From positions 1-63,769 of the forward strand of contig NZ_WASO01000009.1 of the NCBI RefSeq assembly GCF_009712605.1: DNA of 63,769 nucleotides, read 5' to 3'. Position numbers and translations under genes: made by a program. This document shows, one piece after another, positions 13,080-37,712 of this stretch. Below the pieces are notes generated by a model, which ran no database searches, had not been told where the DNA came from, and saw nothing but the letters and a program-made list of their open reading frames with translations. Numbering within the stretch: position 1 is the stretch's first letter; every line of letters begins with the position of its first letter. Source of the DNA: Paludibacter sp. (lineage in GTDB: Bacteria > Bacteroidota > Bacteroidia > Bacteroidales > Paludibacteraceae).

Positions 13080-13311
13080 GATAAGGAGCTTCCGCCCCTT
13101 TGACCCCGACTACCTTTTTGTCTTAAAACAAAAAGGTAGCAAAAAATTCAAGGCTATGCCCGCTTCGCTCAAAAAACCGGCGCTCGTCAAGCTAAATTGA
13201 CCAAACTTGCCCCTTCCTTTCGTCAGGAGCTTCAAACAATGGACAATTTTACGCTTGCCTCTCTTGTTTTTTGGCTCTCCGGACAAGGCCGGTCCCAATC
13301 TGACGTAGCAT
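13080..13311 (+). repeat. Dispersed structured repeat, copy A
   Basis: This ~230-bp element matches copy B at 32082-32313 over its whole length and copy C (reverse) at 37529-37712. It folds into a terminator-like stem (13110-13120 with 13129-13139), a long-range stem (13194-13202 with 13241-13249) and an inner hairpin (13209-13214 with 13225-13230) holding the 10-nt loop TCCTTTCGTC. Stem bases differ from the other copies mostly in compensating pairs. It fills the 332-bp gap between rmuC and the next small gene. Confidence 0.8.
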
Positions 13312-13375
13312 TCTTTACAAATTTAGCGTCTATTATTTACCAAAATTTTAAATACATAATCACTGACCTCTCACT

Positions 13376-13585
13376 ATGAAACTGCTTATCCTGATCACGA
13401 TATTTTGTCCCATTGCCCTGATATATCTGGTTCCCCGCTATATAAAACTGCGCGAGAAATATATCCGTCTTGAAGAAAACAGCGTCTCTCTCCAAAAGTA
13501 TAATGCCGTTCAAAACGAACTAAAGCGGCTTAAAAAGTTATTGGCTCAAAAGGAGCAGGAAACAGGACAAACTTCCGGCAAGTAA
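13376..13585 (+). CDS. Small membrane-anchored coiled-coil protein, unknown function
   Basis: A 69-residue protein with one N-terminal hydrophobic helix (about residues 3-20) followed by a charged heptad-rich stretch (KLREKYIRLEENSVSLQKY and onward), ending in a glutamine-rich tail. It resembles small Bacteroidota hypothetical membrane proteins but I cannot name a family. It begins right after repeat copy A and is followed by a short hairpin at 13613-13626, which could end its transcript. Coding is plausible but not certain. Confidence 0.55.
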   Translation: MKLLILITIFCPIALIYLVPRYIKLREKYIRLEENSVSLQKYNAVQNELKRLKKLLAQKEQETGQTSGK

Positions 13586-13964
13586 ACAAAACTTGACTAT
13601 TTTCCTGCAATCCGACCATGTTGTCGGATTTCCTCTTTTTTCTTTTTTATCGAATCATTCGCTCTCTTTTGTGGGCAAAACATCTTTTAGAACTCCAACT
13701 ATTTTGTCTCAATAGCAACCCTCAATCCGGCTTCATACAAAAAGCCGACTTTATTTTACCAGCGATCTTCATCAAGAATCTATCTGTAAAAATAACAAAA
13801 CAACCCCAAATAATTAAACAAACAGCTTCTCGCAAAGCCATTACCCGAAAAATATTCATAAAACAATAATATTCAAAACATTACCCTCAAAATAACAATG
13901 TAATATTTTTTTAAAATGCAACAAAGATCACAAATTCAGCAGCATCGATTCAATTCATAACGAC
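13586..13964. other. Long AT-rich gap without a supported gene
   Basis: After a CCGAC/GTCGG hairpin at 13613-13626 followed by a T-rich stretch, the sequence is AT-rich, and the only open frame (13618-13869, + strand) lacks protein-like composition. The right end leads into a promoter box and a candidate small RNA. Confidence 0.5.
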
Positions 13965-13972
13965 TAGATTTG
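13965..13972 (+). promoter_or_regulatory. -7 box of a candidate small RNA
   Basis: TAGATTTG fits TAnnTTTG exactly. There is no open frame for 300 bp downstream of it, but a strong terminator lies about 140 bp on. The -33 element is not convincing. Confidence 0.4.
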
Positions 13973-13977
13973 CATGT

Positions 13978-14118
13978 ATAGTATAACCACAAGAACCAAT
14001 ATAATTATACATTCCGAAGGAATGATTTTTCAGACAGCATATTGCTGTGCTACATTTAAGCCCAAATCTAAAGAGAAAAGCCGAGGTTAATTGATAGCCT
14101 CGGCTTTATTTTTTTGTA
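13978..14118 (+). ncRNA. Candidate small noncoding RNA of about 140 nt
   Basis: The stretch starts just after a TAnnTTTG box and ends in an ideal terminator. It contains two small hairpins, CATTCC-GA-GGAATG-like at about 14011-14023 and CAGCA-TAT-TGCTG at about 14036-14048, and the 13-mer ATCTAAAGAGAAA directly before the terminator stem. No gene lies upstream on this strand that would need the terminator within 480 bp. I know no family match, so this is an inference from promoter, hairpins and terminator. Confidence 0.4.
14077..14118 (+). terminator. Rho-independent terminator of the candidate small RNA
   Basis: The 10-bp arms AAAGCCGAGG and CCTCGGCTTT enclose TTAATTGATAG and run into ATTTTTTTTG. 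This is the strongest classic terminator in the region. Confidence 0.85.
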
Positions 14119-14133
14119 TTTTATTTTCAGATC

Positions 14134-14165
14134 TTGCAAATTCAATTTATTTTTTGATAACTTTG
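14134..14165 (+). promoter_or_regulatory. Promoter of the 7TM-AraC regulator
   Basis: TTG at 14134-14136, a 21-bp spacer and TAACTTTG at 14158-14165 match the Bacteroidota pattern. The predicted leader to the ATG at 14272 is about 100 nt. Confidence 0.6.
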
Positions 14166-14271
14166 TTTGCAGCGTTTTGAGAGAAATTTCAAGTATGTAC
14201 ACATACATGTATCTTCTTTTGAGTGTTGCTGACCGGACAAACCAATTGCAAACACAAGATCAAACTACAAT

Positions 14272-15459
14272 ATGGGACTCTATATTACCGGACTTGGAAT
14301 GTTACTTTCCTTCGTGTTAGCATTATATTCCCGCCTGCATTTCAGAGGGAATATCTATTTGGCTATATTCTTTTTCCTTTTTAATCTTGAAGAGTTTGCT
14401 ATTGATGCGCTGCATGTTGAGAAATATCCTGTCATAGCAGCAGTCATGTTATACCATTTTGCCCCCCTATTTTTCCTCATCGGCCCAGCTTTCTATCTAT
14501 ATTCCAGAAGTATAATCACGAACTCCGCCCGCTTGTACAAGAAAGACCTTTGGCATCTTCTGCCTGTTATTGTCACATTTATTGTTTTATGGAAGTATTA
14601 TTTTTGGAGTTTTGATCACAAGATTTCTCTGGCAGTAGAAATAAGCAAAGGAATACAAGCTTACCTCTTCGGTTTTCGTAGCATTATTCCGCAGGCATAT
14701 ATCAACCTGTTACGAGCAATTTCAATTCTTGGCTACATTAGTTATGCTGCATGGATTTTTTATAGGAACCTGCCTCAAATCAGGTCTCATTCGCTCTTAA
14801 GACCCAAACAACGGCAAAGTGTAGAGCTTTGGTTGAGAGTCACCTTTATATGCACTATCACGCTTTCCTTTATTTATCTGTTGGCTTCGATACAATTAGT
14901 TGCTTTCAACAAAATTGACATAGTCGGACCCAATCATTTCATAATTCCGTTGATTTACATGGCGCTCAATATAATTCTCTTGTTTTGTCCGCAAATATTG
15001 TATGGACTTCTCTCTCATGTGGCAAGCATCGATGATATTGAAGATCAATCCGTTGCCGAGAAACCCGAAAACACTAAGAATAATGGTACTCCCGATTTAC
15101 TTCTCTTTACTGACGAATATATTGACGAAATTGAAAGAAAACTGAAGAATGTTGTGATGCAGAAAGAATATTGTAACCTGGATTTGTCCCGTTCTAAACT
15201 GTCGAACCTAACGGGAATTCCCCTACATCATCTTTCCTATTATTTCTCCAATATTCTGAATATCAAATTCACAGACTGGAGAAATCAACTACGGGTAGAC
15301 CATGCTAAGAAGTTAATTTCATCTGAAACAATGAAAACCATGACGCTGGACGCAATAGCAAATCAATGCGGATTCGGAAACCGGCAAAATTTCATTGCAT
15401 CCTTTAAAAAAATGACCTCCATGACTCCGTCCGAATATCTGAATTCGACAAAGAAATGA
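14272..15459 (+). CDS. Membrane-integral AraC-family transcriptional regulator
   Basis: A 395-residue protein with seven or eight membrane helices in the first ~245 residues and an AraC-type DNA-binding domain at about 280-395. The C-terminal part shows the two helix-turn-helix units, LSRSKLSNLTGIPLHHLSYY and LDAIANQCGFGNRQNFIASF, and the closing MTPSEYL motif. Such membrane-AraC proteins sense a signal at the membrane and bind DNA directly. It precedes the convergent hemicellulose genes and could regulate them, but that is inference from position only. Confidence 0.85.
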   Translation: MGLYITGLGMLLSFVLALYSRLHFRGNIYLAIFFFLFNLEEFAIDALHVEKYPVIAAVMLYHFAPLFFLIGPAFYLYSRSIITNSARLYKKDLWHLLPVIVTFIVLWKYYFWSFDHKISLAVEISKGIQAYLFGFRSIIPQAYINLLRAISILGYISYAAWIFYRNLPQIRSHSLLRPKQRQSVELWLRVTFICTITLSFIYLLASIQLVAFNKIDIVGPNHFIIPLIYMALNIILLFCPQILYGLLSHVASIDDIEDQSVAEKPENTKNNGTPDLLLFTDEYIDEIERKLKNVVMQKEYCNLDLSRSKLSNLTGIPLHHLSYYFSNILNIKFTDWRNQLRVDHAKKLISSETMKTMTLDAIANQCGFGNRQNFIASFKKMTSMTPSEYLNSTKK

Positions 15460-15571
15460 AGGTCAAATATTAATTCAGGGTCTCTTCCGCTTAAATGTTG
15501 TCTTACCTCCAAACAACTTCAGGCTAATGCTATTCAATATTCAGCCAACCGGTTTCGTCAGGTGGAATGAA

Positions 15572-16267
15572 TCATTTTACCTGAAACACACCTACGGGCG
15601 ACGTAGAACTATTCCCCGCTTTATCTGTCGTTACCACCTTCCAGTAATAGGTCTTTCCACTTGACAAGTTCTGAGACAATGTCGTTGATGTTTGTGAAGC
15701 TACAACCTGAGTCGATGCATTGGTATTATCAAGATAGAACGCATAGCCGGCAATATCATTGTCAGGATCGGAGCCGCTCCATTGAAACGTAACCTGCGTA
15801 GTAGACGCACCTCCGGCATTGACTACCGCGCCTGAAGCCGGTGACGTCAAATCGGCAGGAAATGGTGCATAACTACCGGAGGCAACTCCCGACAAAAAGA
15901 ATTTCCACGCATTGCCGGAGGTTTTCCCTGAAGAATTTATAGCCGTCACGCTCCATGAATATGGGACATTAGCATCCAGACTTGCTGTATATGACACGTT
16001 ATTTGTGTTATAACTAACGGTAGCCTGAGTGTTCAGATTCTTAACATCTAAACGGTAGCTATCGGCATTGGTTGAGGCGCTCCACGAAAAAGTAACCGAT
16101 GCAGAACTTCCGCTTGCTGACGAACTTTTAAGACATGCTGTATTATCAGCTGGAGAAGATAATGTTACAGCACCCGGAACCGGCACAGGTGTATCCTTCT
16201 TTCCACAACCTGCAAGCAGGAACGTTGCTATCAAAGCAACAACAGAAAATAAATATTTTGATTGCAT
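15572..16267 (-). CDS. Lipoprotein with two fibronectin type III-like domains
   Basis: A 231-residue protein with a lipoprotein signal peptide (lipobox LLAGC, cysteine at residue 21). Two beta-sandwich repeats of about 90 residues follow, each with a V-T-F-x-W-S core (SVTFSWSAS, QVTFQWSGS) and a Y-x-W-x-V strand near the end (YSWSVTA, YYWKVVT). This is the SusE/FnIII-like style of surface lipoproteins in glycan loci. It lies downstream of the GH5-GH43 gene with an 88-bp gap containing a hairpin, so it is likely in the same transcript and may bind glycan at the cell surface. Confidence 0.75.
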   Translation of the reverse strand: MQSKYLFSVVALIATFLLAGCGKKDTPVPVPGAVTLSSPADNTACLKSSSASGSSASVTFSWSASTNADSYRLDVKNLNTQATVSYNTNNVSYTASLDANVPYSWSVTAINSSGKTSGNAWKFFLSGVASGSYAPFPADLTSPASGAVVNAGGASTTQVTFQWSGSDPDNDIAGYAFYLDNTNASTQVVASQTSTTLSQNLSSGKTYYWKVVTTDKAGNSSTSPVGVFQVK

Positions 16268-16291
16268 ATTAGTAGTTTCTTTATTTAGTAA

Positions 16292-16317
16292 TCTCTGCTA
16301 ATACAGGTTAGCAGAGA
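16292..16317 (-). promoter_or_regulatory. Intercistronic hairpin between glycan genes
   Basis: TCTCTGCTAA and TTAGCAGAGA form a perfect 10-bp stem with a 6-nt loop between the two minus-strand genes. No T-tract follows on the minus strand, so partial termination or mRNA stabilisation is more likely than full termination. Confidence 0.5.
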
Positions 16318-16355
16318 CTATTCTTGTTTCAATTATATATTTCCGAATCCGACCA

Positions 16356-19300
16356 TTATTTCTTCATCAGTCGCATGGTATCGTGGATTTGTGTTCCCTT
16401 AATATGGAGAATATAAATCCCGGCAGGAAGACCGGCAACATTGAGACGAATCAAACGATCGGAGGCTACCGCAACAGTTTGCTGAAATTGAATGCTGCCA
16501 TTCATAGTAGCGATTTCGACCTTGACAGCCTCATCCTTACCCGGCACTCCGATTAACAATGGTCCATCGGTAGGGTTTGGGAACACAGTGGCCTGGTTGT
16601 TTCCATCAAAATAGATGGTTTCCTGATAAATTCCCTGACAATCTTTATCGGTACGGATGCTTATGCGGTTCTCTCCTTTCTGCAATGGTATGTTCGCCAT
16701 TTGAGACTGCGTAGTTACTGTATTGTCATTTACCGTAATATAATAATTCTTGCCTCCATTCAGACTATATTGCGCAACGCCTTCCGATGCTTTCACCTTC
16801 ATCACGTTTAAATCCTGAGGTTGCGACACCACTATCGTGAAATTTTGCTTATAGCCGCTAATGTCTGCGGATGTAATTTCTACCGTGTATGTGCCGGGAG
16901 CCAAACCGGACAAACTATAGCCCGACGTAGCGGTAGCAGTTTTACTGTAACTTGTTCCCTTTATGTTCAATGAATAGCTGAACGGCAAAGTAAATGTAAT
17001 ATCAAGAGCTCCATCGTTGCTGTCGCGGCAGGTGCAATTGGATACTTTAAGCTTGCAATTGCTATTGCCGGGACAAAAACCTGCAACAAGCGTACGTGAT
17101 CCGCTGACGGTGAAAGTGTATGATGCATTTGAGGAAACCAAAACTCCGCCTTCCGTCCAACCGGAGAAGGCATATCCGGTTGCAGGAGTGGCTGTCAGGG
17201 TACATGAGGAACCATTGCTGTAAATACCGCCACCACTGACTTTTCCGCCGGCATTGTTATTGGACGAAATGGTTATGACCGGATCGTTTGCCGATGGCTT
17301 GGAAAAATCGCTGTTATTGGTTACATAAACATCATTAATGTTAATTGGAGAACCTCCGTTTGCCCACAATCCGACGATATAAACGTGAGACGATGTAAAA
17401 GCCGTCGTTGTGCCCGACTTCGTTGAGTTCGACAGATTAATAACCGCCCTGTTATTGGAGTCGAAAGAAGCTTCCGTCGGCTTGGTCCAATAACTATTTT
17501 CGTCAAACGCCCGCACAACGGTTCCACCCGGAGGAACAGCTCCAAGTTGTACCACCAGATATTTGTAGCCAGACAAATCGATTCCGTTGTTATAGCTCCA
17601 TCCCCCAAAACCCCACTGACCAGGCACAAACGTATGGGTAGTGGCATTAAAGGTACCCGTGGCGTAAATAGATGGATTGAACAGATCTGCCGTTAACGGA
17701 AAATAGGTAGAGCGGACGTTCAAAGTCAAACTTTTCGCACTGCCCATACCGCCCTGATAAGTAACTGTAACCGTTGCATCACCATTGGCTGTTGCAATTA
17801 AGAGTCCGTTTTTAATGGATAAAGTTGATGGACTTGAATTTGCATAAGTTGCACTCAGCGTTACATCTTCGGTATGACCGTCTTTGTATACGGCTGTTAT
17901 TACAAAGCTTTTATTAGTTCCGGTCACCATCGTAATATCAGTTGCATCTGTTTTCAGGTCACTCAGGGTCAATGCATCTTCGCTGTAGCCCACAAAGGAC
18001 TTATCGAAAAACGCATCCTCAGTAAAATCTTTCTCTGTGGAGAACCAGTCAACATCGACATAACCACCCGTGGCTACCGTGGAATAATTAAAAATCCCGA
18101 AACGATTACCGACGAACACCGATAGATTGTACTGCATAATCAAAGACCCTACTTGTGTATAAGTCTTATTATCTGTACTGTAATAAAAATCGGCCTGACT
18201 GGTAGCATAATTGGCAACTGTCCGCAGGTAGATTACACTATCGTTTACAGCCGCGCCCAGTTGCTGAGTTTTGGTTCCGGAATTCAGGAAAAGCAAGCGC
18301 TTTTGTCCGCTGACCATTTTCACTCCAAGAAAAGCGTACGGATCCTGGAATACGCACAAACCTGCCACGTCACCTTCCGCCATATTTGCTGTATGCAGCT
18401 TAACGGTGCCGTATGACAAATTCTGATTGGCCGGAAAGCCCAGAATACGTTGTGTCAGGGTATTTTTCGCTTTTGGAAGGCTATCTGCAACATTTGCCGC
18501 ATACAAGCGCAAAAATCCCGGACGCTTCACTAACGACCATTTTGAATTATCGGGATTATGATTCCATTCCCACTGAGAAGCCAGCTTGTAATCCCTGAAA
18601 TTATCATTAGTAGGCAAATTCGTAACTGCATACGACCTGCCGACGTTGGGTTTTTTATACGAAGTAACATCTTTTCCGCTCACCCCGACCATCGGCCAGT
18701 TGTCTACCCAGGTTACCGGTTCCAGATTCGGCAAACGCCCATAAGCACCTTTGTCGGCAAAGAGCATTGTCCACCATTCGCCGGTTTGTGTTTGAATCAG
18801 AGCTCCCTGATGAATGCGACTGCTGTTGAACACTTCTTTTTCATCGTACGGGCCAAAAATAGACGACGACCGGAATGCCACCTGAGTAGCATAATATCCA
18901 CCGGTTGTAGAATAGATGTAATAATATCCGTTTATTTTATACAAATGGCTTCCTTCTGTTGCCGCGTTATCAATGCCCGATGGAATATTTCCGAAGGTAA
19001 TTGCCTGATCTTTCACGACATTAAAATCGGCATCCAGTTGCGCAATATGCAACTTTCCGATGCCATAGACGATATAGATTTTATCGTCATCATCAAAGAA
19101 AAGGCCGGCATCATAAAAAGAAGAGGATAGTTTTTTCTTCGTCCACGGACCTGCGGGATTGGTGGCTGTCAGCAAGTAACTACCCTCGTCCAGCGTATTG
19201 AAATGAAGGTAGTAAGTGCCTTTATGATATTTCAGGCTGCTCGCCCATTGCCCACGGCTATAACGATTACAGCCATCTAAATTATAGCAATTCGTCGACT

Positions 19301-20696
19301 CGATTTTGTCCAGAGGATTGCTGCAATATTCCCAGTTCACCAGATCGTACGATTTTAATATGGTGGCTCCCGGGAACTGGTGCATGGTAGTAGTCGACAT
19401 GTAGTAAACATCCCCCACGCGAATAACATCAGGGTCAGGAAAATCGCCAAAAATAACCGGGTTTTTGAATGTACCGTCGCCGTTATCACTATTGGAAAGG
19501 TATGTAAAATCGGGTCGTGGACAATTATTGAGGGCATATTGCTGATACCAGTGAAAACATGACCATGGACATGCCTGCGGATCATTAAGGAAAACAGTAT
19601 CTTTAGGAGCTGCCACGTGGGTAGAGTCAAATTTTGCCAGCAAATCAGGGCCAGTAAACAGCAGCCAGCTTACATTTCCCGAATCGTCGGTAATCTTTTT
19701 GAAATTTGCCCCGAATCCGTTTCCACCCGCCGTTCCGGTACTGTCTTTCCCCCAGGAAGAATTATATTTTGCGGGAGCCCAGTCCATTTCGGTAACAACA
19801 ATCGGAGCTATGTTGGCCGCAGGTTTCACCTGCGTATCCCATCCTTTCTGAAAATCGGCATAGCCCTGACCGCTGTTAAACCATCCCGGGTACATGTGCA
19901 CCGCATAGCCGATATTCTTTCCCTCGATAGGATTTACAGCAAACCCCTGATACAAGGCTTGATATCCGAGGCCCGGAACCCAGAGAATATTGTCAGCGCT
20001 GGAACGGATGGTATCAACAACTGCCTGAAAATATTTTTTCAGATTATCGAAATGTCCCTGCGAACCGGCGCCGTAGGTGCCATCCGTTCCCTGGATAGTA
20101 ACCGGTTCGTTAGCCAGCTCAAACATTACATTGGAATTATTTTTTAATTTGGGATGCTGAGCAACATAACCCCAGACTTTAATCAAATACTGATTATAAG
20201 CATCTCCGACTGCAATTTTTTCGGGACAGACACCGGGAGGTCGCATAATGACATACAATCCTTTGGATATGGCGTATTCGGCCATCGGAATGAACACGTT
20301 ATCAAGAGCAGTTTTGAATCGGTCGAAGCTAAATGCGGATATGTCGTTTTCGCCTGTAACAGCAGCACCCGGAGTGTTCGACCAGTATGGATCCATGTGT
20401 AGGCGGATGAAATTCATTTTCCAGCCCGCTTTCAACATGTTATCAATCAAACCCTGATTATATTTCAAACATCCGGAGACATCATAATTAGTCCAGATTT
20501 TTCCCTGCTCGTTAAACCAGGGAGAATAAGTTTGAGCGAATCCATGCAAATTAACGATATTTCCATGGGTATCTTTCAGATAGCGCCCATCTACGTGCAA
20601 CCGCGGCATCGGTGACCCCACCCATGCACTGACATGAGAGGTAAAAGCCACAAGCCAGACCAGCAGCAGCAATGATTTCAGGTTCTTGTTTTTCAT
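16356..20696 (-). CDS. Secreted multidomain GH5-GH43 glycoside hydrolase with type IX sorting domain
   Basis: A 1446-residue enzyme. After a signal peptide (1-24) comes a GH5 domain (about 30-390) with acid/base E197 in FELANEP and nucleophile E303 in VVTEMDW. A GH43 domain follows (about 410-690), with the catalytic base in FPDPDVIR near D421, D529 in YDAGLFF and general acid E581 in ATEGSHLY. Then come a beta-sandwich typical of GH43 C-termini (about 700-895), a Big_2-like domain (about 920-995), a lectin-like sandwich (about 1000-1130), an InlB-type repeat (about 1140-1208), and a Por sorting domain at 1370-1446 (VFPNPTDGPLLI, GIYILHI). The two catalytic units fit endo- and exo-attack on xylan or arabinoxylan. 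Export through type IX secretion is inferred from the sorting domain. Confidence 0.88.
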   Translation of the reverse strand: MKNKNLKSLLLLVWLVAFTSHVSAWVGSPMPRLHVDGRYLKDTHGNIVNLHGFAQTYSPWFNEQGKIWTNYDVSGCLKYNQGLIDNMLKAGWKMNFIRLHMDPYWSNTPGAAVTGENDISAFSFDRFKTALDNVFIPMAEYAISKGLYVIMRPPGVCPEKIAVGDAYNQYLIKVWGYVAQHPKLKNNSNVMFELANEPVTIQGTDGTYGAGSQGHFDNLKKYFQAVVDTIRSSADNILWVPGLGYQALYQGFAVNPIEGKNIGYAVHMYPGWFNSGQGYADFQKGWDTQVKPAANIAPIVVTEMDWAPAKYNSSWGKDSTGTAGGNGFGANFKKITDDSGNVSWLLFTGPDLLAKFDSTHVAAPKDTVFLNDPQACPWSCFHWYQQYALNNCPRPDFTYLSNSDNGDGTFKNPVIFGDFPDPDVIRVGDVYYMSTTTMHQFPGATILKSYDLVNWEYCSNPLDKIESTNCYNLDGCNRYSRGQWASSLKYHKGTYYLHFNTLDEGSYLLTATNPAGPWTKKKLSSSFYDAGLFFDDDDKIYIVYGIGKLHIAQLDADFNVVKDQAITFGNIPSGIDNAATEGSHLYKINGYYYIYSTTGGYYATQVAFRSSSIFGPYDEKEVFNSSRIHQGALIQTQTGEWWTMLFADKGAYGRLPNLEPVTWVDNWPMVGVSGKDVTSYKKPNVGRSYAVTNLPTNDNFRDYKLASQWEWNHNPDNSKWSLVKRPGFLRLYAANVADSLPKAKNTLTQRILGFPANQNLSYGTVKLHTANMAEGDVAGLCVFQDPYAFLGVKMVSGQKRLLFLNSGTKTQQLGAAVNDSVIYLRTVANYATSQADFYYSTDNKTYTQVGSLIMQYNLSVFVGNRFGIFNYSTVATGGYVDVDWFSTEKDFTEDAFFDKSFVGYSEDALTLSDLKTDATDITMVTGTNKSFVITAVYKDGHTEDVTLSATYANSSPSTLSIKNGLLIATANGDATVTVTYQGGMGSAKSLTLNVRSTYFPLTADLFNPSIYATGTFNATTHTFVPGQWGFGGWSYNNGIDLSGYKYLVVQLGAVPPGGTVVRAFDENSYWTKPTEASFDSNNRAVINLSNSTKSGTTTAFTSSHVYIVGLWANGGSPININDVYVTNNSDFSKPSANDPVITISSNNNAGGKVSGGGIYSNGSSCTLTATPATGYAFSGWTEGGVLVSSNASYTFTVSGSRTLVAGFCPGNSNCKLKVSNCTCRDSNDGALDITFTLPFSYSLNIKGTSYSKTATATSGYSLSGLAPGTYTVEITSADISGYKQNFTIVVSQPQDLNVMKVKASEGVAQYSLNGGKNYYITVNDNTVTTQSQMANIPLQKGENRISIRTDKDCQGIYQETIYFDGNNQATVFPNPTDGPLLIGVPGKDEAVKVEIATMNGSIQFQQTVAVASDRLIRLNVAGLPAGIYILHIKGTQIHDTMRLMKK

Positions 20697-20853
20697 AGCA
20701 AAATATAGGTATTTAAGGTAATAGGTGTATTAGTAAGCCTTGAACTTACGGAGAATTCGTCACGAACTCTTTCTTCGCTCTATCAACTCTTTTCGGCATT
20801 CCGATGGTTGCGGAATATTGGTTCGTCTACCGATAGCGAACCTGTTTCATAAG

Positions 20854-21034
20854 GAAGTCGTCTTGACTTCGGAAGTTATGTAACTTACCGTTTATGTTTA
20901 CTCATCAACCCCTCCTAACCTCCCCTAAATGGGGAGGAACTCGTCTTTAAAACGAGCAAATTCTATTCATTTTGCAATGTTACAGCCCCCATTTTGGGGG
21001 TTGGGGGTCAAAATGAAAAAGTCAAGATGACTTC
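20854..21034. repeat. Nested inverted-repeat element (MITE-like)
   Basis: The outer arms GAAGTCGTCTTGACTT (20854-20869) and AAGTCAAGATGACTTC (21019-21034) match at 15 of 16 pairs. Inside lie C-rich and G-rich arms (about 20906-20935 and 20986-21010) and a central CTCGT/ACGAG hairpin. The AACCCCTCC/GGGGGTTGGGGG style arms are common in Bacteroidota intergenic regions. No transposase is present, so any mobility would need help from outside. Confidence 0.65.
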
Positions 21035-21402
21035 AAGGAATCAGTCTCCGGTATTTGTTCCTGACTTCTTCAAAAAAAGGCTTCATTCCCTTCTTTTTAG
21101 TCCGAAGAGTCTACGTAAAAACGAAAGACTACAAATGAGGCGGTAAAATTCAGAAAAAAAACAGTATCCAAATTCAATTTTTAGACATGAAATTTCTAAA
21201 AACAGACAGATATAACGGTCTATCACCGACTTTGGATGAAAAGAGCGGCTCCAACAAGGAAAAGTTTTGTTTCATGAGCATGCGAACATAGAGAAACCTT
21301 GCGGCTAAATTGCACACCGAGGAATCGAATCAATGATGATACACAAACACAATAAGTACAACTGTCTTATCAATCCAGATACCCATCAAGTCTTTTAAGT
21401 CC

Positions 21403-28202: not shown

Positions 28203-28209
28203 CGTTGCA

Positions 28210-29438: not shown

Positions 29439-29445
29439 GCCTTAT

Positions 29446-29490: not shown

Positions 29491-29507
29491 TACGTCGAGC
29501 AAGACGA

Positions 29508-30086: not shown

Positions 30087-30098
30087 AATAGTTGTTTG

Positions 30099-30578
30099 TT
30101 AATGATTCGACATTTGAGACAGCTTCTCTTTGATACGGTTGATGCGCACACCAACATTATTGCGGGTAATCCCTACGATTTGAGCAATTTCATCATACGA
30201 ACGCTCTTCGAGATAGAGCAATACAATTGCCTTTTCAATTTCGTTCAGGCGGTTAATCAGCGTGTAGAGTTCCTTGATTTGCGAGGTATCGATAGAGTCA
30301 TCGTACACAATCAGATCCTCCGACAAAGCCGTAGTTTTGGGCCTCGATCCTGATTTGCGCATAAACGTCACGCAGGTATTCAGAGCAATACGATATATCC
30401 AGGTCTGCACCTTGCAATCGCCCCGAAACGTCGGGTACCCCTTCCATAAATTGATGATCACCTCCTGAAAAAGATCCTGCGGAGTATCGGCTTCGTTGGC
30501 GTACATATAGCAAAACTTGTATATCAACGCTTTGTTTTGCTCAATCAGTGACACAAAATATTGTTGTTGATCTTCCAT
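30099..30578 (-). CDS. ECF-type RNA polymerase sigma factor
   Basis: A 159-residue sigma-70 family member with only regions 2 and 4. Region 2 includes DTPQDLFQEVIINLWKGY and TWIYRIALNTC; region 4 has the helix-turn-helix RSYDEIAQIVGITRNNVGVR. The short linker and length fit extracytoplasmic-function sigma factors, which direct RNA polymerase to a small regulon. It is the first gene of a two-gene operon. The upstream region holds perfect palindromes that may be control sites. Confidence 0.92.
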   Translation of the reverse strand: MEDQQQYFVSLIEQNKALIYKFCYMYANEADTPQDLFQEVIINLWKGYPTFRGDCKVQTWIYRIALNTCVTFMRKSGSRPKTTALSEDLIVYDDSIDTSQIKELYTLINRLNEIEKAIVLLYLEERSYDEIAQIVGITRNNVGVRINRIKEKLSQMSNH

Positions 30579-30697
30579 TCAAATAATAGTTGTTTTTAAT
30601 GAGTTGATCCGTTGGATTCGAGCTGGCCCGGCTACGAACTCCGGCACGGTTGCATGCATGCTAACTCTTGTGTTTGTTCTATTAGTCGCATAAACGA

Positions 30698-30711
30698 CTG
30701 TAATATTACAG
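30698..30711. promoter_or_regulatory. Operator-like palindrome upstream of the sigma operon
   Basis: CTGTAATATTACAG is a perfect 14-bp palindrome about 120 bp before the sigma-factor start. It overlaps a second inverted pair at 30684-30699. Function is unknown. Confidence 0.35.
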
Positions 30712-30816
30712 CTTTTCGGAAAATAATTAACATAAACCAGAATCTTCTTTCTCTGTCGTTATGTATCTAATTAAAAATCATGAAATAACGGTCGAAACCT
30801 TTATCGTTCGGGTTAC

Positions 30817-30853
30817 GCAAAAAATGCTGCAAAAGACTCTCTCTTGCAGCATT
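30817..30853 (-). terminator. Terminator of gpmA
   Basis: AATGCTGCAA (30823-30832) and TTGCAGCATT (30844-30853) pair perfectly, and the minus strand then reads TTTTGCG. It lies 27 bp beyond the gpmA stop. Confidence 0.8.
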
Positions 30854-30879
30854 CAAATCCAATCAATCAACTTATTTTC

Positions 30880-31554
30880 TTACATGACTCGTTTTACAAC
30901 GCCATCATTGTATTCGAAATAGAGGGGAACGCCGGTCGGAATTTCTAGTTTCAGTACTTCTTCTTCCGACAGCCCGTCGATGTGCATCACAATCGAACGC
31001 AAACTGTTACCATGCGCCGATACCAACACATTTTTCCCGGCTTGCAACTGCGGTAGAATTGTGTCGGTAAAAAACGGAATGGTTCGTTCTGCCGTATCTT
31101 TCAAACACTCACCGTCAGGAGGAGCCACATCGTAACTGCGCCGCCAGATATGCACCTGTTCTTCGCCGTACACCTCCGCTGTTTCGGCTTTGTTCTTTCC
31201 CTGAAGTTCTCCGTAATACCGTTCGTTCAGGTGCCAATCGCGATACACCGGAATCACGTTCCTGCTCATGGCATCGTTGTAAATAGTAGTCCATTCAGCC
31301 ATTTTTCCTTCGGTATGAATCACCACCGGAGTCTTCTGGCTATTGTTGGCCGCCATGGCGATCATGGCCGTTTCGATGGCGCGTATCTGCACCGAAGTAA
31401 ATATCACATCGAATTCGATGCCGGCAATCTGTTCTCCGGCTTTCAATGCTTCGCCCACACCTTCGCGGGAGAGAGGCACGTCCACCCATCCCGTAAATAC
31501 ATTCTTTTTGTTCCAGACCGACTGTCCGTGACGTATCAATATCAGTTTTGACAT
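30880..31554 (-). CDS. gpmA: 2,3-bisphosphoglycerate-dependent phosphoglycerate mutase
   Basis: GpmA interconverts 2- and 3-phosphoglycerate in glycolysis and gluconeogenesis. The catalytic LIRHGQSVWN lies at residues 5-14, with FTGWVDVPLS, the NERYYGELQGKNKAE substrate loop and SAHGNSLRSIV completing the active site. At 224 residues it is slightly shorter than E. coli GpmA. I chose the ATG at 31554 (MSKLILIRHG), the usual start just before the first strand; an ATG at 31581 adds nine residues with no homology. A well-formed promoter lies just upstream. Confidence 0.93.
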   Translation of the reverse strand: MSKLILIRHGQSVWNKKNVFTGWVDVPLSREGVGEALKAGEQIAGIEFDVIFTSVQIRAIETAMIAMAANNSQKTPVVIHTEGKMAEWTTIYNDAMSRNVIPVYRDWHLNERYYGELQGKNKAETAEVYGEEQVHIWRRSYDVAPPDGECLKDTAERTIPFFTDTILPQLQAGKNVLVSAHGNSLRSIVMHIDGLSEEEVLKLEIPTGVPLYFEYNDGVVKRVM

Positions 31555-31590
31555 AATATTCTCAGTTTTCATGTTGAACATTTTGATTCC

Positions 31591-31621
31591 GAAAGTTACA
31601 ACATCAAAAAGGGCTTGTCAA
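31591..31621 (-). promoter_or_regulatory. Promoter of gpmA
   Basis: On the minus strand TTG (31619-31621), exactly 20 bp, then TAACTTTC (31591-31598), one base off TAnnTTTG. The leader to the ATG at 31554 is about 30 nt. Confidence 0.6.
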
Positions 31622-31826
31622 GAGAAAAGTGAACCCGAACGAGGGAAGCAATTTCAGGGCTTTTCCCGGACATTTCGGTAAGGTGTCGCAATAAAAGTTA
31701 CATAAATGTAGCTACGGCAACTCATCACTCCAATGTACCATGCTAGTTATTAATAAATTGAATTACTGGCACACTTTTTATTACACAAACTAATGAAGAA
31801 CAAGTTATCACGCGGCAACAAATAAG

Positions 31827-32042
31827 ATGAACAACGAATCGACCGAAATATTGACCCTGATAAAGATCAGCAGCTTTGAAAATACTCCCTTCTATATTTT
31901 CATGAACGAAGAGGGAGAATTCCGTTCGCTGGAAGCCAACAAATCTGCGCTAATGCTCGAACCCGGAGCGATAGTCAAAGCCAGCATTCGTAAAAAAGGG
32001 TGCGCCGGCAGAGAAATTACCGCACTTTGTTCTCTACCGTAA
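31827..32042 (+). CDS. Small hypothetical protein
   Basis: A 71-residue acidic-to-neutral protein with no signal peptide or membrane helix. It shows a beta-rich pattern (LIKISSFENTPFYIFMNEEGEF) followed by EPGAIVKASIRKKG, and the composition and codon use look coding. I do not recognise a family. It stands alone between gpmA and repeat copy B, with no TAnnTTTG box seen upstream. Confidence 0.5.
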   Translation: MNNESTEILTLIKISSFENTPFYIFMNEEGEFRSLEANKSALMLEPGAIVKASIRKKGCAGREITALCSLP

Positions 32043-32081
32043 TCAAGCACTTCTTCTCCGGAATTACACCTTTAAGATGTT

Positions 32082-32313
32082 GATAAGGGGCTTCCGCCCC
32101 TGTGCCCCCGACTTCCTTTTTGTCTTAAAACAAAAAGGAAGCAAAAAATTCAAGGCTATGCCCGCTTCGCTCAAAAAACCGACGTTCGCCAAGCTAAATC
32201 GCCCAAACTCACTCCTTCCTTGCGTCAGGAGTTTCAAACAGTGGGCAATTTTACGCTTGCCTCTCTTGTTTTTTGGCTCACCGGACAAGGCCGTTCCTAA
32301 TCTGGCGTGGCAT
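32082..32313 (+). repeat. Dispersed structured repeat, copy B
   Basis: Full-length relative of copy A. The stems are at 32112-32122/32131-32141, 32196-32204/32243-32251 and 32211-32216/32227-32232, with loop TCCTTGCGTC. It fills most of the 381-bp gap before the metal efflux genes. Confidence 0.8.
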
Positions 32314-32385
32314 TATTAGCATATTTTGTATCTGTTTTTTCCAAACTTCTTAAATGCGTAATCCCTGCACTTCTTCTCTTTTGGC

Positions 32386-32416
32386 TTGCATAGTTCCTCA
32401 TCTCTGCCTATCTTTG
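32386..32416 (+). promoter_or_regulatory. Promoter of the metal-efflux genes
   Basis: TTG at 32386-32388, a 20-bp spacer, then TATCTTTG at 32409-32416. The start codon follows only 7 bp after the box, so the mRNA would have almost no 5' leader. Confidence 0.55.
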
Positions 32417-32423
32417 CAAACCG

Positions 32424-32738
32424 ATGATGAAATTGCTGGCTTACATATTATCCATTTATGTTGTACTGCTGACGCTGATGCCCTGCGTGGATCTGCCACA
32501 GGACAACCGTCTGCATCAACAGGAAATGACTACTCAAACCGGCAGCACTCATCAGGATTGTCTGGATGTGTGTTCTCCTTTCTGTACCTGCAATTGTTGC
32601 TCCGTTCCGGTGGTATGCGTTGCTGCAAAAACCGAAATAAAAGGTGCAATGGCGGAACCTCGCAGATTCTCGAGCTATCTTCCGGCATCCGAATTCAACC
32701 TCTACTGTTCGATCTGGCAACCTCCCAAGCTGGGTTAA
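32424..32738 (+). CDS. Small cysteine-rich secreted protein preceding a metal efflux pump (DUF6660-like)
   Basis: A 104-residue protein with a signal peptide-like hydrophobic start (MMKLLAYILSIYVVLLTLMP). A cysteine cluster follows (DCLDVCSPFCTCNCC, with CVAAKT just after), and the tail ends in LYCSIWQPPKLG. Small proteins of this pattern commonly precede CusA/CzcA genes in Bacteroidota and carry the label DUF6660. The seven or more clustered cysteines suggest metal binding in the periplasm, perhaps sensing or delivering metal to the pump, but no function is proven. The start at 32424 or the ATG one codon later is equally possible. Confidence 0.7.
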   Translation: MMKLLAYILSIYVVLLTLMPCVDLPQDNRLHQQEMTTQTGSTHQDCLDVCSPFCTCNCCSVPVVCVAAKTEIKGAMAEPRRFSSYLPASEFNLYCSIWQPPKLG

Positions 32739-32889
32739 TCACTTTCCTTTTTTAATTCCGGATTCTTCCGGAAACTCCTTTTGTATCCACAAGTCATTTG
32801 CGAATACAATTTCCCAACATCTGTAACCGAACGGTAATGCGGCATTATGTCCGTCATTATTCCGTTACTCATTACCCGTTCCTAACATT

Positions 32890-35800
32890 ATGATCGAACG
32901 CATTATCCAATTTTCAATCAAAAACAAATTCATCGTGGGGCTGTTTGTGTTGGCTCTTATCGGCTGGGGAACCTACTCCCTCACCCGACTGCCCATCGAT
33001 GCAATACCTGATATCACCAACAATCAGGTACAGATCATCTCCTTAGCTCCATCGTTGGCGGTACAGGAGGTGGAGAGTTCCATCACGGCGCCCATCGAGG
33101 TGGCCGTTGCTAATATTCCCGACATCGTGGAGTTGCGCTCCATTTCGCGACTCGGATTGTCGGTGGTTACCGTTGTTTTTAAAGACAACACCGACATTTA
33201 CTGGGCACGTCAGCAACTATCCGAACGCCTAAAGGAGGCCGAAGAGGCAATTCCTCCCGGCGTGGCAAAAACCGAACTGGCTCCGATATCTTCGGGCCTG
33301 GGTGAAATTTATCAGTATCGACTTGCCGTAACTGCCGGATTTGAACAGAAATATTCGCCAATGGAGTTACGCACCCTTCAGGATTGGGTGGTACGGCGCG
33401 AAATGCTCGGAACGCCCGGCGTGGCCGACATCAACAGTTACGGCGGCTATGTAAAACAATACGAAGTGGCCGTCAACCCCGAACGTTTACGGGGCATGAA
33501 CCTCACGCTGACCGACATTTTCACGGCACTCGAAAAGAACAACGAAAACACCGGCAGCGCCTATATCGACAAAAAACCGAGCGCTTACTTTATTCGTGGA
33601 ATCGGCTTGGTGAAATCACTGGACGATATCGGAAAGATTGTGGTAAAGACCACCGCTTCAGGCATTCCGGTATTAATCCGCGATGTGGCAACCGTCCAAT
33701 ACGGCAGCGCAACCCGTTACGGCGCTTTAGTCATCGACAACTCGGAAGCCGTGGGCGGCGTGGTGATGATGCTGAAGGGAGCCAATGCCAACGAGGTAAT
33801 CAAAAACGTGGAAACCCGCATTGCCGAAATACAAAAATCATTGCCTCAGGGGGTAAAAATCGAACCGTTTCTCAACCGTTCCGATCTGGTGGGACGTGCC
33901 ATCGGTACCGTTTCGCGCAACCTGATGGAAGGTGCGCTGGTGGTGATCTTTATTCTGGTGCTCTTCCTCGGCAACCTTCGCGGCGGCCTGATTGTGGCTT
34001 CGGTTATTCCGCTCTCCATGCTCTTTGCCATTTCGCTGATGAATCTCTTCGGGGTATCTGGCAATTTGATGAGCCTCGGCGCTATCGACTTCGGGCTGAT
34101 TGTAGACGGAGCCGTGATCATCGTGGAAAGCGTCGTTCACCGCATTACACAGAGCAAAACGCATCATCAGGGCATTACACGTTTGTCGCAACAACAGATG
34201 GACGAAAACGTATTCGAATCAGCCAAACGGATGATGAGTTCGGCCACCTTCGGACAGGTCATCATCCTCATCGTTTACCTGCCCATTATGGCATTGGTAG
34301 GCATCGAAGGCAAAATGTTCCGTCCCATGGCGCAGGTGGTTGCCTTTGCACTGATAGGAGCCGCGATCCTTTCGCTCACCTACGTTCCGATGATTTCGGC
34401 GCTCTTCCTCAATAAAAATACGGAGCACAAACGAAACTTCTCAGACCGCATGATGGAGAAACTGCACGAATGGTTTACTCCGGTCATTCATTGGGCTTTG
34501 AATCACAAAAAGAGCGTGATCGGGGGAGCTGTCGGAGCTTTCATCGTATCACTCTTCTTCTTTACCCGTTTGGGTGGCGAATTTATTCCACAACTCGAAG
34601 AGGGCGATTTGGCAGCCGGAGTCATCACGCTTCAGGGAGGTTCGCTGTCGAACACTATCGACATGGTAGAAAAAGCGAACAAAATTCTATTGACCAATTT
34701 TCCGGAAGTGAAACATGCAGTCTGCAAGATCGGAGCCGGAGAAATTCCAACCGATCCGACTCCCATGGAAACCGGCGATTACATTATCACACTGAAAGAC
34801 AAAAACGAGTGGACATCGGCCAAAACCCGCGAAGAGTTGGTGGAAAAGATGCAGGAAGCGTTGATTCCGCTAGCCGGAGTAAAATTTGAGTTTCAGCAAC
34901 CTATCCAGATGCGTTTCAACGAACTGCTTTCCGGATCAAAACAGGACATTGCCATCAAACTTTTCGGCGACAACCTCGATGTGCTCGCACAGAAAGCTTC
35001 CTCAATTGAACAAATAATCAAAAGCGTGGAGGGTGTGGAAGATATCAATGTGGAGAAAGTTACCGGATTAGCGCAGGTTCAGGTAAAGTACAACCGCGAC
35101 CGCCTGGCGCAATACGGTTTGTCGATTGAAGAAGCTAACCGCATTTTACGCGTGGCATTTGCCGGCAGTCAGGCAGGCGTAGTGTTCGACGAAGAAAAAC
35201 GTTTTGCGCTGGTAGTTCGTCTCGAAAAGGATTACCGCCAAAGTCTCGAAGATGTCAAAAATATTTCCGTTGCCCTGCCCGGAGGAGGACAAATTCCTTT
35301 TGAACAACTGGGCGAAATATCGATTCAGTTGGGACCGGCGCAGGTATCGCGCGAAAATACCAAACGCCGCATCACCATCGGATTCAACGTGCGCAACCGC
35401 GACATCGGCAGCGTTATCAACGAAGCGAACCACAAAATCGACCAACAGATCAAACTGCCGACCGGTTATTACGTTTCGTATGGCGGACAGTTCAAAAATC
35501 TGGAAGCAGCCAGCAACCGACTGGCGATTGCCGTTCCGATAGCGCTTTTACTGATTTTCGTGTTACTTTACTTCACCTTCCATTCGGTAAAACAGAGCCT
35601 GCTCATCTATTCTGCTGTTCCGATGGCTGCCATCGGCGGAATTATTGCGCTTTGGTTGCGTGGAATGAATTTCTCCATCTCGGCCGGAGTAGGATTTATC
35701 GCCCTCTTCGGGGTAGCAGTTCTGAACGGCATCGTGCTGATAGCAGAGTTCAACCGACTGGAGAAAGCCGGTTACACCGACATCACCGAACGGGTGATTA

Positions 35801-37272
35801 AAGGATTGCAAACCCGGTTACGCCCAGTATTGATGACGGCTGCCGTCGCCTCCATGGGTTTCCTACCAATGGCGTTGTCGACCTCAGCGGGAGCCGAAGT
35901 GCAAAAGCCCCTGGCGACCGTAGTCATCGGCGGACTTATCACTGCTACAATGCTAACTTTGATTATTCTACCTGTGCTCTACATCATTTTTTCGACGAGG
36001 AAATTTTCGTTTTTCAAAAGGAAGAAAAAAGCCGCTGCACTTGTAACAATAGGATTCTGTATGATATTTTCCGGTCAGCTTCAGGCGCAAACGCCCCGAA
36101 AAATCACACTGGATCAGGCAATTCAACTGGCGCTCGATAGCAATCTCTCGGTACGCTCTTCGGCTTACTCCGTCGATGTGCAAAAGGCAATGAAAAGTGG
36201 GGCATGGGATTTACCCAAAACCAGCATCGAAGGGCAATACGGACAGATGAATTCCTACCGAAAGGACAACAGTTTCACGGTAAGCCAGTCGTTCGCCTTT
36301 CCGGGACTTTATATCAACCAAAACAAGTTGGCAAAAGCAAATATCAAAAGCAGCGAATGGCAATTGAAAAGTACCCGTTTGCAGATTGCTACAGAAGTAA
36401 AGCAGCTTTATCAACAACTGATCTATCTCGACGCAAAGCTGAAATTGCAAAGCTATCAGGATAGTCTTTACGGCAATTTCTCCAAAGCAGCTGAACTGCG
36501 CTCAAATACCGGAGAGACCAACCGACTGGAGATGATCTCAGCACATTCGCAAAATATGGAGATTCAAAATCAACTGAAGCAGACACGTGCCGACATAGAC
36601 ATTGCCACTCAAAAATTGACTCTGATGCTGAATATTAACACGCCAGTCGCTCCGTCCGACGCGGTTTTGAAACGACTGGAATGGTTACCGACTTCGAACG
36701 AAAATGCCATTATTGATAATCCTTCGCTCGGCATTACGGCACAGCAGGTAGAAGTCTCCCGTTTGGAGAAAGCCGTTGAGAAAAGCAAGTTGATGCCCGA
36801 CTTTTCGATCGGTTATTTCAGTCAGACAATGCTTGGCACACAGGATGTGAACGGTACGCAACGTAATTACACTGTGGCCAATCGTTTTACGGCAATTCAG
36901 GCGGGGATCTCCATTCCCCTTTGGTTTGTGCCCGGCAATGCAAGGGTAAAAGCAGCCCGTTTCAAAGAGAAAGAGGCGCAAGCTACACACGAAGCCTGGG
37001 CGAAATCGCTGACCGGCAACTACCGATCATTATTGCTTAAACTGGAGAAAGATCGCAACAGCGTAGATTACTACGAGAAACAGGCCATTCCGGAAGCAGA
37101 TCTGATTATCAAACAATCTACGCAAAGCTATCGAGCCGGAGCCATGGATTATCTCGACTATCTTCAAAGTCTCGGCAGGGCGCTAAGCATCAAACAGAAT
37201 TATCTGGAGGCGTTGAATGAATACAATCAAACGGTAATTGCCATCGAAGCCATTACCGGGAAAATAAAATAA
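32890..37272 (+). CDS. CzcA/CusA-type heavy-metal efflux pump fused to a TolC-like outer-membrane domain
   Basis: A 1460-residue protein. Residues 1 to about 1045 are a heavy-metal RND permease with twelve membrane helices and the family blocks RLPIDAIPDITNNQVQI, GAIDFGLIVDGAVIIVES and ALFGVAVLNGIVLIAE. It drives metal cations out using the proton gradient. After a basic linker (KRKKK) comes a hydrophobic segment ending in QLQAQ that looks like a signal peptide, then an outer-membrane efflux (TolC/CzcC) domain at about 1070-1460 (ITLDQAIQLALDSNLSV, YRAGAMDYLDYLQSLG). The pump and the outer channel thus form one chain. The adaptor is the next gene. Confidence 0.92.
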   Translation: MIERIIQFSIKNKFIVGLFVLALIGWGTYSLTRLPIDAIPDITNNQVQIISLAPSLAVQEVESSITAPIEVAVANIPDIVELRSISRLGLSVVTVVFKDNTDIYWARQQLSERLKEAEEAIPPGVAKTELAPISSGLGEIYQYRLAVTAGFEQKYSPMELRTLQDWVVRREMLGTPGVADINSYGGYVKQYEVAVNPERLRGMNLTLTDIFTALEKNNENTGSAYIDKKPSAYFIRGIGLVKSLDDIGKIVVKTTASGIPVLIRDVATVQYGSATRYGALVIDNSEAVGGVVMMLKGANANEVIKNVETRIAEIQKSLPQGVKIEPFLNRSDLVGRAIGTVSRNLMEGALVVIFILVLFLGNLRGGLIVASVIPLSMLFAISLMNLFGVSGNLMSLGAIDFGLIVDGAVIIVESVVHRITQSKTHHQGITRLSQQQMDENVFESAKRMMSSATFGQVIILIVYLPIMALVGIEGKMFRPMAQVVAFALIGAAILSLTYVPMISALFLNKNTEHKRNFSDRMMEKLHEWFTPVIHWALNHKKSVIGGAVGAFIVSLFFFTRLGGEFIPQLEEGDLAAGVITLQGGSLSNTIDMVEKANKILLTNFPEVKHAVCKIGAGEIPTDPTPMETGDYIITLKDKNEWTSAKTREELVEKMQEALIPLAGVKFEFQQPIQMRFNELLSGSKQDIAIKLFGDNLDVLAQKASSIEQIIKSVEGVEDINVEKVTGLAQVQVKYNRDRLAQYGLSIEEANRILRVAFAGSQAGVVFDEEKRFALVVRLEKDYRQSLEDVKNISVALPGGGQIPFEQLGEISIQLGPAQVSRENTKRRITIGFNVRNRDIGSVINEANHKIDQQIKLPTGYYVSYGGQFKNLEAASNRLAIAVPIALLLIFVLLYFTFHSVKQSLLIYSAVPMAAIGGIIALWLRGMNFSISAGVGFIALFGVAVLNGIVLIAEFNRLEKAGYTDITERVIKGLQTRLRPVLMTAAVASMGFLPMALSTSAGAEVQKPLATVVIGGLITATMLTLIILPVLYIIFSTRKFSFFKRKKKAAALVTIGFCMIFSGQLQAQTPRKITLDQAIQLALDSNLSVRSSAYSVDVQKAMKSGAWDLPKTSIEGQYGQMNSYRKDNSFTVSQSFAFPGLYINQNKLAKANIKSSEWQLKSTRLQIATEVKQLYQQLIYLDAKLKLQSYQDSLYGNFSKAAELRSNTGETNRLEMISAHSQNMEIQNQLKQTRADIDIATQKLTLMLNINTPVAPSDAVLKRLEWLPTSNENAIIDNPSLGITAQQVEVSRLEKAVEKSKLMPDFSIGYFSQTMLGTQDVNGTQRNYTVANRFTAIQAGISIPLWFVPGNARVKAARFKEKEAQATHEAWAKSLTGNYRSLLLKLEKDRNSVDYYEKQAIPEADLIIKQSTQSYRAGAMDYLDYLQSLGRALSIKQNYLEALNEYNQTVIAIEAITGKIK

Positions 37273-37292
37273 CACGTGAACATCTTTAGTTT

Positions 37293-37462
37293 GCCTGCGG
37301 CAGGCCTTACTTTTTGGCGCAAAAAGTAAGCAAAAACATTGACGGAAAGAACTCGTTCGCTCGGCCATGAAACATTTTCTCATTACAAAACGTCTGTTAC
37401 TGGCCTACTCACTCAAACAGCTTTCCGTCGGTTTGGTATTCTTGTTTGTCCCTTCGGGTCTG
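37293..37462 (+). repeat. Dispersed structured repeat, divergent copy D
   Basis: It begins with a GCCTGCGGCAGGC hairpin, then a terminator-like stem CTTACTTTTTG/CAAAAAGTAAG (37306-37316 with 37320-37330). A long-range stem GACGGAAAG/CTTTCCGTC (37341-37349 with 37421-37429) follows, flanked inside by AACTCG and TCAAACA as in the other copies. Elsewhere the sequence differs strongly. Confidence 0.6.
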
Positions 37463-37528
37463 ATTTAGCAATGATTATGACAATACTCCTGTTCTATTAT
37501 TATAAAACTTGCTTATGCAGATTCAAAT

Positions 37529-37712
37529 GGCCTTGTCCGGTGAGCCAAAAAACAAGTGAAGCGACGCAAAAATCGTCCTTGTTTGATGTTATCGACGATA
37601 GGAGATAACGAGTTTGGACGATTTACGTCGTTGAACGCCCGTTTTTTGAGCAAAGCGGGCATAGCCTTGACCTTTTTGTTTACTTTTTGTGTCAAGACAA
37701 AAAGTAAAAGGA
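37529..37712 (-). repeat. Dispersed structured repeat, copy C
   Basis: Read on the minus strand it shares CAAGGCTATGCCCGCTT and the GGCTCACCGGACAAGGCC end with copies A and B. The stems are 37698-37708/37679-37689, 37616-37624/37570-37578 and 37604-37609/37588-37593, with loop TCCTATCGTC. The inner stem is GTTATC/GATAAC, quite unlike the ACTCCT/AGGAGT of copy B, yet still fully paired. Confidence 0.78.

Follow-up and report, generated by a model that had tools for sequence, protein, structure and literature searches.

A dispersed repeat of Paludibacter with a covarying fold: candidate gene-free mobile elements carrying a structured RNA

What is selected in a repeat whose stems change while their pairing persists, an RNA or a DNA substrate, and how does it reach its sites? 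The question is raised by a contig of 63,769 nucleotides from Paludibacter sp. (NZ_WASO01000009.1, assembly GCF_009712605.1), the whole of which is called the window here. It contains three copies of one repeat: A (13080-13310, + strand), B (32082-32315, + strand) and C (37520-37720, − strand). As a sequence-only reading of the window had described, they share about 230 alignable bp (mean column identity 84%), and the inner hairpin, the long-range stem and the first hairpin vary in step between them. The 15-mer CAAGGCTATGCCCGC, with up to two mismatches, occurs three times in the window against 0.04 expected.

We consider it rather probable, from the sequences compared below, that these copies are mobile elements, non-autonomous and without genes, whose cargo is a free-standing structured RNA with a core of about 150 nt and a 3′ hairpin, on the strand opposite to the one first read for A and B. 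Gene-free mobile elements of bacteria are usually seen as transposase parasites that make no product themselves. What these copies carry is a conserved, covarying RNA fold without an Rfam family, found in several families of one order and with similar 3′ ends elsewhere in the phylum; if transcribed, it would be an RNA gene that moves.

The fold, its strand and its covariation

Further genomic copies exist in number. With copy B as query, BLAST returns 29 pieces from the window's own genome (G000 among our genome numbers; 3.70 Mb, 15 contigs), one of them the copy's own hairpin in reverse. Merged by eye, they amount to 21 copies and two fragments, A, B and C being three of about 21. Matches occur in 12 of 31 genomes, the own genome counted, including all eight of the genus; in G020 and G024 they span a hairpin of about 40 bases only.

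Sixty-four copies were collected by pattern; the alignment uses 55 of them, without the nine that exceed 205 bases. On this alignment RNAalifold yields −12.0 kcal/mol for the strand first read and −32.8 kcal/mol for the opposite one. An A·C mismatch on one strand is a G·U pair on the other. The imperfect pairs of the structure predicted on the first strand are 3 G·U and 19 A·C; on the opposite strand they are 301 G·U and 5 A·C, or 80 against 5 once the 221 G·U of one doubtful helix are set aside. The orientation originally given to A and B as the folded strand is thus reversed: the selected strand is its complement, where the intermediates are G·U.

On this strand, the predicted fold is a long stem with conserved internal loops and a GNRA-like apical loop, followed by a 3′ hairpin whose loop is complementary to an upstream CUUGAN. 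The apical loop, GACGNAAGGA, had been taken for ten fixed nucleotides; the ten-letter loop is present in 47 of the 55 aligned copies, with about three positions variable. Loops of exactly ten letters are GNRA in 35 of 46 cases and GNNA in 39 of 46. Seven of the eight copies without such a loop come from G007 or G008, and the eighth is locus L109; the loop is one letter shorter in L109 and L129, the others having a shorter apical part.

Two covariance models were made, both of which can be rebuilt from the listed loci. R1 derives from the 55 copies; since it pairs one doubtful helix (UUGUUUGA with RAGUUUG), R2 was built from 22 well-aligned copies of type 1, a group defined below, with a structure set by hand. 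In the R2-fitted alignment of 75 distinct rows, three of them antisense, 96.1% of 2992 cells are standard pairs and 33 of the 41 pairs show double changes. The covariation score, 0.444, compares with no more than 0.102 with slid partners and 0.187 after shuffling. The R1-fitted alignment, whose 97 distinct rows come mostly from other genera, gives 94.6% paired cells, double changes in 28 of 38 pairs, and 0.453 against at most 0.094. The copies being related, we wrote a tree-aware null following the idea of R-scape, in which the tree and the per-branch substitutions are preserved while the columns that the substitutions fall in are changed. With a model-fitted alignment of 72 rows it leaves four pairs at an expectation value (E) <0.05 among all pairs, all four in the structure; a test of structure pairs alone finds 16 of 41 significant. 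The repeat thus has the significant covariation of a structured non-coding RNA, weaker on a plain alignment, and the 75 and 97 distinct rows with their controls support the earlier proposal of selection on the folded form, be it RNA or a DNA substrate.

The predicted pseudoknot joins the 3′ end of the core, CUUGAN, to the loop of the following hairpin, NUCAAG. In the 117 distinct copies with both words, the variable letters are A-T in 39, C-G in 47, T-A in 20 and other in 11; 106 are Watson-Crick and 109 pair when wobble is allowed, against a mean of 41.6 and a maximum of 58 in 2000 shuffles, which ignore relatedness among copies. A-T and C-G are both present within each type of the own genome, and T-A in other families. 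The exceptions include GGCAAG in four G005 copies (L030, L096, L097, L102), GACAAG in L101 and an inverted loop in L123.

All three window copies fit this description. The core of A lies at 13145-13293 on the − strand (R1 positions 1-149, 172.7 bits), and its 3′ hairpin (13109-13140, −) has a loop able to pair with the upstream CUUGAA through one G·U. Copy B has its core at 32147-32295 (−, 174.3 bits) and the pseudoknot partner in the loop of the hairpin at 32111-32142 (−). For C, the core is at 37526-37673 (+, 163.6 bits; L018 1501-1648), and the loop of its hairpin (37679-37708, +), GUCAAG, is complementary to the upstream CUUGAC.

Two variants of the arrangement are seen in G007, where a different hairpin stands in place of the 3′ one (L129, L044, L052) and L129 contains two equal-scoring copies in tandem (606-753 and 1056-1203), 450 bases apart.

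Element borders and carriers

Copies of the own genome split into type 1 (A, B and others) and type 2 (C and nine others), with features of both mixed in L008 and L116. The shared stretch of about 230 bp is real, but the true elements are longer: type 1 measures about 310 bp and extends past the first borders to inverted ends CAGGGATTACGYATTTAA, and type 2 about 420 bp. Inverted ends, target repeats, pseudoknot and empty sites had all escaped the sequence-only reading and are found here.

Copy A occupies 13056-13365 (RNA strand −), between inverted ends CAGAGATTACGTATTTAA and TTAAATACATAATCACTG. It is flanked by target repeats ACCTCTCCAT (13046-13055) and ACCTCTCACT (13366-13375) that match in 8 of 10 letters; the right one is directly 5′ of the ATG at 13376, a start codon kept in three relatives. 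The insert lies between the stop codon of one gene and this conserved ATG, and the orthologous site is empty in G005, G002 and G006, where the gap measures 10 or 11 bp. Copy B, also with inverted ends (32058-32366, RNA strand −), lies between exact repeats GCACTTCTTCT (32047-32057 and 32367-32377), and its site is empty in G005. At site B of G002 (L090, G002:C268), about 1 kb of other DNA is present instead.

Type 1 copies also carry a distal hairpin, which in B is GGGGC-GGAA-GCCCC on the RNA strand (32087-32100, −). This form or GGGGT-GGAA-ACCCC, a compensating change, is found in 33 of the 38 copies grouped with type 1, and the loop is a GNRA on the same strand as the RNA. Separately, inserts of about 20-64 bases lie inside element hairpins at six loci of the own genome (L010, L013, L015, L019, L021, L023); some resemble a short unit similar to repetitive extragenic palindromes (REP), others CCCCGTCGCTTCGGCCGGGATGTTCCA or AGCTTACGCTGACCGTTGGTTGG.

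A fuzzy scan detects both inverted ends in 16 copies. Exact direct repeats of 7-12 letters were recognized by eye in 10 of the 16, L031 and L003 being one insertion common to G000 and G002; the six copies without exact repeats include L032 and L108, whose ends are poor. Similar ends delimit insertion sequences of the ISAs1 family. One of them, L156 in G004 of the same genus (NF033564, 372.9 bits against a cut-off of 70), has ends CAGGGAAAACGCTTTTA and an exact 10-bp repeat TTATGAATCA; another, L187 in G364, has ends CAGGGCAAACGCATCTAA. Compared directly, type 1 reads CAGGGATTACGCATTTAA and family f64 CAGGGCAAACGCATTTAA, against CAGGGAAAACGCTTTTAR in L156 and CAGGGCAAACGCATCTAA in L187, the match between type 1 and L156 being imperfect. 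The f64 ends come from G082, a genome of another family, where CAGGGCAAACGCATTTA-type ends enclose three RNA copies; a 10-bp repeat is exact in L158 and 9/10 in L169. Besides those of G082, no other distant or named copy passed the test for both ends. ISAs1-family target repeats measure about 8-10 bp.

Type 1 fits an ISAs1 miniature element because of its inverted ends, its target repeats and the similar ends on ISAs1 insertion sequences. With such elements it shares the CAGGG-type inverted ends, target repeats of about 10-12 bp, a size of about 310 bp and the lack of a gene; it differs from them in enclosing a conserved structured RNA, which type 2 harbours without such ends. A transposase of the ISAs1 family, working on the CAGGG-type ends, may thus have mobilized type 1 copies as miniature elements. 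Elsewhere in the own genome, similar inverted ends surround two decayed ISAs1 transposase fragments (L146 450-876, G000:C11:19450-19876), 36% identical over 42 and 65% over 17 to the L156 transposase; they have no NCBIfam match.

Type 2 lacks the type 1 ends, none of CAGGG type being seen in ten aligned copies, and its second half is another hairpin module. Copy C spans 37290-37715, with RNA 1 on the + strand and the second module on the − strand, head to head. This module (37306-37429) comprises a GACGGAAAG..CTTTCCGTC stem, a CTGTTTGAGTGAG/GAGCGAACGAGTT loop and the hairpin CTTACTTTTTGCGCCAAAAAGTAAG, and is followed by a terminal hairpin GCCTGCGGCAGGC (37293-37305). Because CTGTTTGAG and GAGTT, two words of this module, recur in RNA 1 of some relatives, copy C resembles two head-to-head RNAs. 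Over all contexts the module has 31 distinct copies, some without RNA 1. It stands alone at many sites (L133-L145), with stems highly similar between copies. At site C, the RNA is absent in G005, G002 and G003; excision, deletion and separate insertion are indistinguishable there because G005, which is without the rest of copy C, keeps the terminal hairpin amid other repeats. Our search found no carrier of type 2, which would have spread by a different route from type 1, as a head-to-head pair of two hairpin modules.

The selected molecule

We favour RNA as the selected molecule because of the strand asymmetry, the GNRA-like loops, the pseudoknot and the neutral orientation towards neighbours. 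Among 84 copies, the upstream frame is on the same strand in 37, on the opposite one in 43 and unknown in 4; the downstream frame is on the same strand in 42, opposite in 40 and unknown in 2. A predicted frame of at least 90 residues crosses the element in about 23 of the 84. An all-against-all comparison of frames up to 2.5 kb from 172 copy records, some of which are one copy present in two loci, reveals no recurrent neighbour gene. Since copies lie in either orientation and no neighbour recurs, the selected molecule would be a predicted transcript working in trans, probably bound by a protein at the conserved internal loops; of this step we are least sure.

Two candidates involving proteins were rejected. 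For a linked protein, the large clusters (69, 44 and 7 loci) are mostly frames that overlap the element, with 12 of 100, 7 of 48 and 0 of 7 members beside it, and the clusters after these three, among the 14 listed, hold at most four loci each. As to a coding function of the repeat itself, the frames that recur lie across the fold, and do so on both strands.

Several observations weigh against a mobile RNA. G·T tolerance on one strand is likewise compatible with a strand-specific substrate made of single-stranded DNA. The 75-, 72- and 97-row alignments were model-fitted, which favours structure, and the 16 of 41 pairs come from such an alignment; with 55 rows aligned by MAFFT alone, one pair, in the apical stem, stays significant under the tree-aware null, while five of the next nine ranked pairs count as stem pairs. 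Covariation beyond the three window copies is thus borne out with the fitted alignment and reduced to a single pair with the plain one. In the stretch scanned, 51 of 168 distinct copies lack the pseudoknot words (27 without CTTG, 24 more without CAAG). Promoter evidence is modest. The consulted part of PMC9723704 gives TAnnTTTG as the main and TAnnTTGY as an alternative promoter word of Flavobacterium psychrophilum; the former lies upstream in 8 of 38 copies grouped with type 1, against a mean of 1.6 and a maximum of 6 in 300 mononucleotide shuffles, the copies not being independent, and in none of 11 type 2 copies, 7 of which have the latter (shuffles: mean 1.3, maximum 5). Scans with terminator consensuses find no site at A and none on the RNA strand at B; at C, one terminator-like site is on the RNA strand, upstream of the RNA, and the numbers about equal those of shuffles. 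Lastly, no intact ISAs1 source gene was found in the own genome: PF13808 has no match there or in G082, and matches in one of the eight genomes of the genus.

Could the fold instead be selected as single-stranded DNA, as a long REP-like substrate of a Y1 (HUH) transposase, for instance of the one-strand-acting Bacteroidetes subclass 2.6? Such an enzyme was attractive at first as the cognate one. Five Y1 matches occur in the own genome, of which L058 (broken), L059 and L060 (both open) read YIHNNP, the last two scoring above the cut-off for REP-associated transposases. Units similar to ATCAGCGAAGCTAA, likely the REP of subclass 2.6, lie near 6 of 30 Y1 loci of the genus, and the same unit is inside some element copies. 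With up to two mismatches, they are found at L058 1112, L081 1169, L082 1209, L083 2057, L084 1341 and 2001, and L085 2001 and 2938. Their GCGAAGC core is a very stable DNA mini-hairpin. The portion of PMC6006769 that we used reports atypical structures on either side of subclass 2.6 genes, with further copies elsewhere. The RNA, however, is present at none of the 60 Y1 loci searched, out of 71 hits from 18 genomes, over flanks of up to 1.5 kb, and G082 has five RNA copies and no Y1 match; on these grounds we dropped Y1 as the main explanation. Nor do Y1 enzymes generate inverted ends with target repeats of about 10-12 bp, as seen in type 1. A DNA substrate is therefore improbable in our view.

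The RNA might also act in cis within the transcripts of its neighbours, terminating them or stabilising mRNA ends in the manner of REP and bacterial interspersed mosaic elements (BIME); we give this a similarly small chance. The strong hairpins with T-rich tracts beside genes would suit this role, as would the position of copy A in a gap of 10 or 11 bp in relatives; yet the 84 copies have no orientation bias towards upstream or downstream frames, terminator scans are weak, and the conserved internal loops, GNRA-like loop and pseudoknot go beyond what a terminator needs. Very improbable is a fold without selection, its stems matched during spread by hairpin-templated (quasi-palindrome) correction or gene conversion between arms: stem alleles recurring in different copies would fit conversion, but the process should erase the conserved internal loops and mismatches, and G·U is kept where A·C is not, the pseudoknot weighing less here because its words are a short inverted repeat.

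Distribution and relation to known families

A mobile structured RNA of this kind matches no family that we could find, in keeping with the earlier statement that none was known. At gathering threshold, Rfam 15 reports a tRNA alone in the window, and lax scans of 25 loci give chance-level overlaps at elements, such as tsr24 at 17.1 bits against 50 (E 4.4). A literature search, with supplements and preprints outside its range, returned no description of the element. Flavo-1 RNA (RF01705) is similarly a dispersed structured RNA of Bacteroidota with no known function, sense and antisense to transcripts according to the consulted part of PMC9723704; unlike it, the element has no Flavo-1 match in the scans made, one sub-threshold match lying elsewhere in L160. 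The BrickBuilt/MITE repeats (MITE, miniature inverted-repeat transposable element) of Porphyromonas gingivalis are likewise non-coding and dispersed in a Bacteroidales genome, and are set apart by description alone, no RNA fold being stated in the portion of PMC5771137 at hand.

REP, BIME and REP doublets forming hairpins (REPIN) resemble the element as dispersed modular hairpins, sometimes in head-to-head pairs, and the own genome has REP-associated transposase genes and short REP-like units. The element differs from them in being several times longer, in its RNA-like pseudoknotted fold, in its inverted ends with target repeats and in its absence from the 60 Y1 loci. The consulted parts of PMC6006769 and PMC3733652 do not describe this fold; the latter describes GTAG and CGTC palindromes. 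We noticed no GTAG or GTGG foot, of the kind that precedes REP hairpins of 20-65 nt, in the fold of about 200 nt, and subclass 2.6 REPs are said, in the same part of PMC6006769, to have no GT[AG]G foot.

Other families of the order have the RNA too, and copy C shows it in a different context. R1 matches (E ≤0.001) are found in 11 of 393 genomes of the order, the own genome counted, and in 7 of 207 genera; these are lower bounds because only seven candidates per genome were scored. In a collection of named genomes, a 20-letter pattern identifies at least 112 stretches. Among the 80 matches listed, all titles are of Bacteroidota, R1 matches at 73 of the 80 loci (E ≤1e-5), and Paludibacter, Plebeiobacterium, Perlabentimonas, Carboxylicivirga, Maribellus, Marinilabilia and Prolixibacteraceae are represented. 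Several named carriers are isolated strains, which makes the partner protein and the effect directly testable. Collections of plasmids, phages and viral contigs contain no match.

Across the phylum, a pattern of the 3′ end (up to three mismatches) matches in 18 of 395 genomes, the own genome counted, and the reversed pattern in 2. On inspection of the 18 loci, the loop is complementary to an upstream word in 9, and CTGTTTGAG is present in 6, with a one-letter variant in 2 more; L304 and L320 look like coding DNA and chance. Judged by these sequences, homology of the phylum-level 3′ ends to the RNA of the window is likely. A wider and more tentative possibility is a superfamily of mobile structured RNAs throughout Bacteroidota, borne by elements without genes, which would be characterized by a conserved CUGUUUGA/GAGUU internal loop, a pseudoknotted 3′ hairpin, unrelated transposon ends and a life style like that of the short interspersed nuclear elements (SINE) of eukaryotes. 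In G009, an RNA element lies about 200 bases from the transfer-messenger RNA (tmRNA) gene (L036 1526-1666 and 1872-2270).

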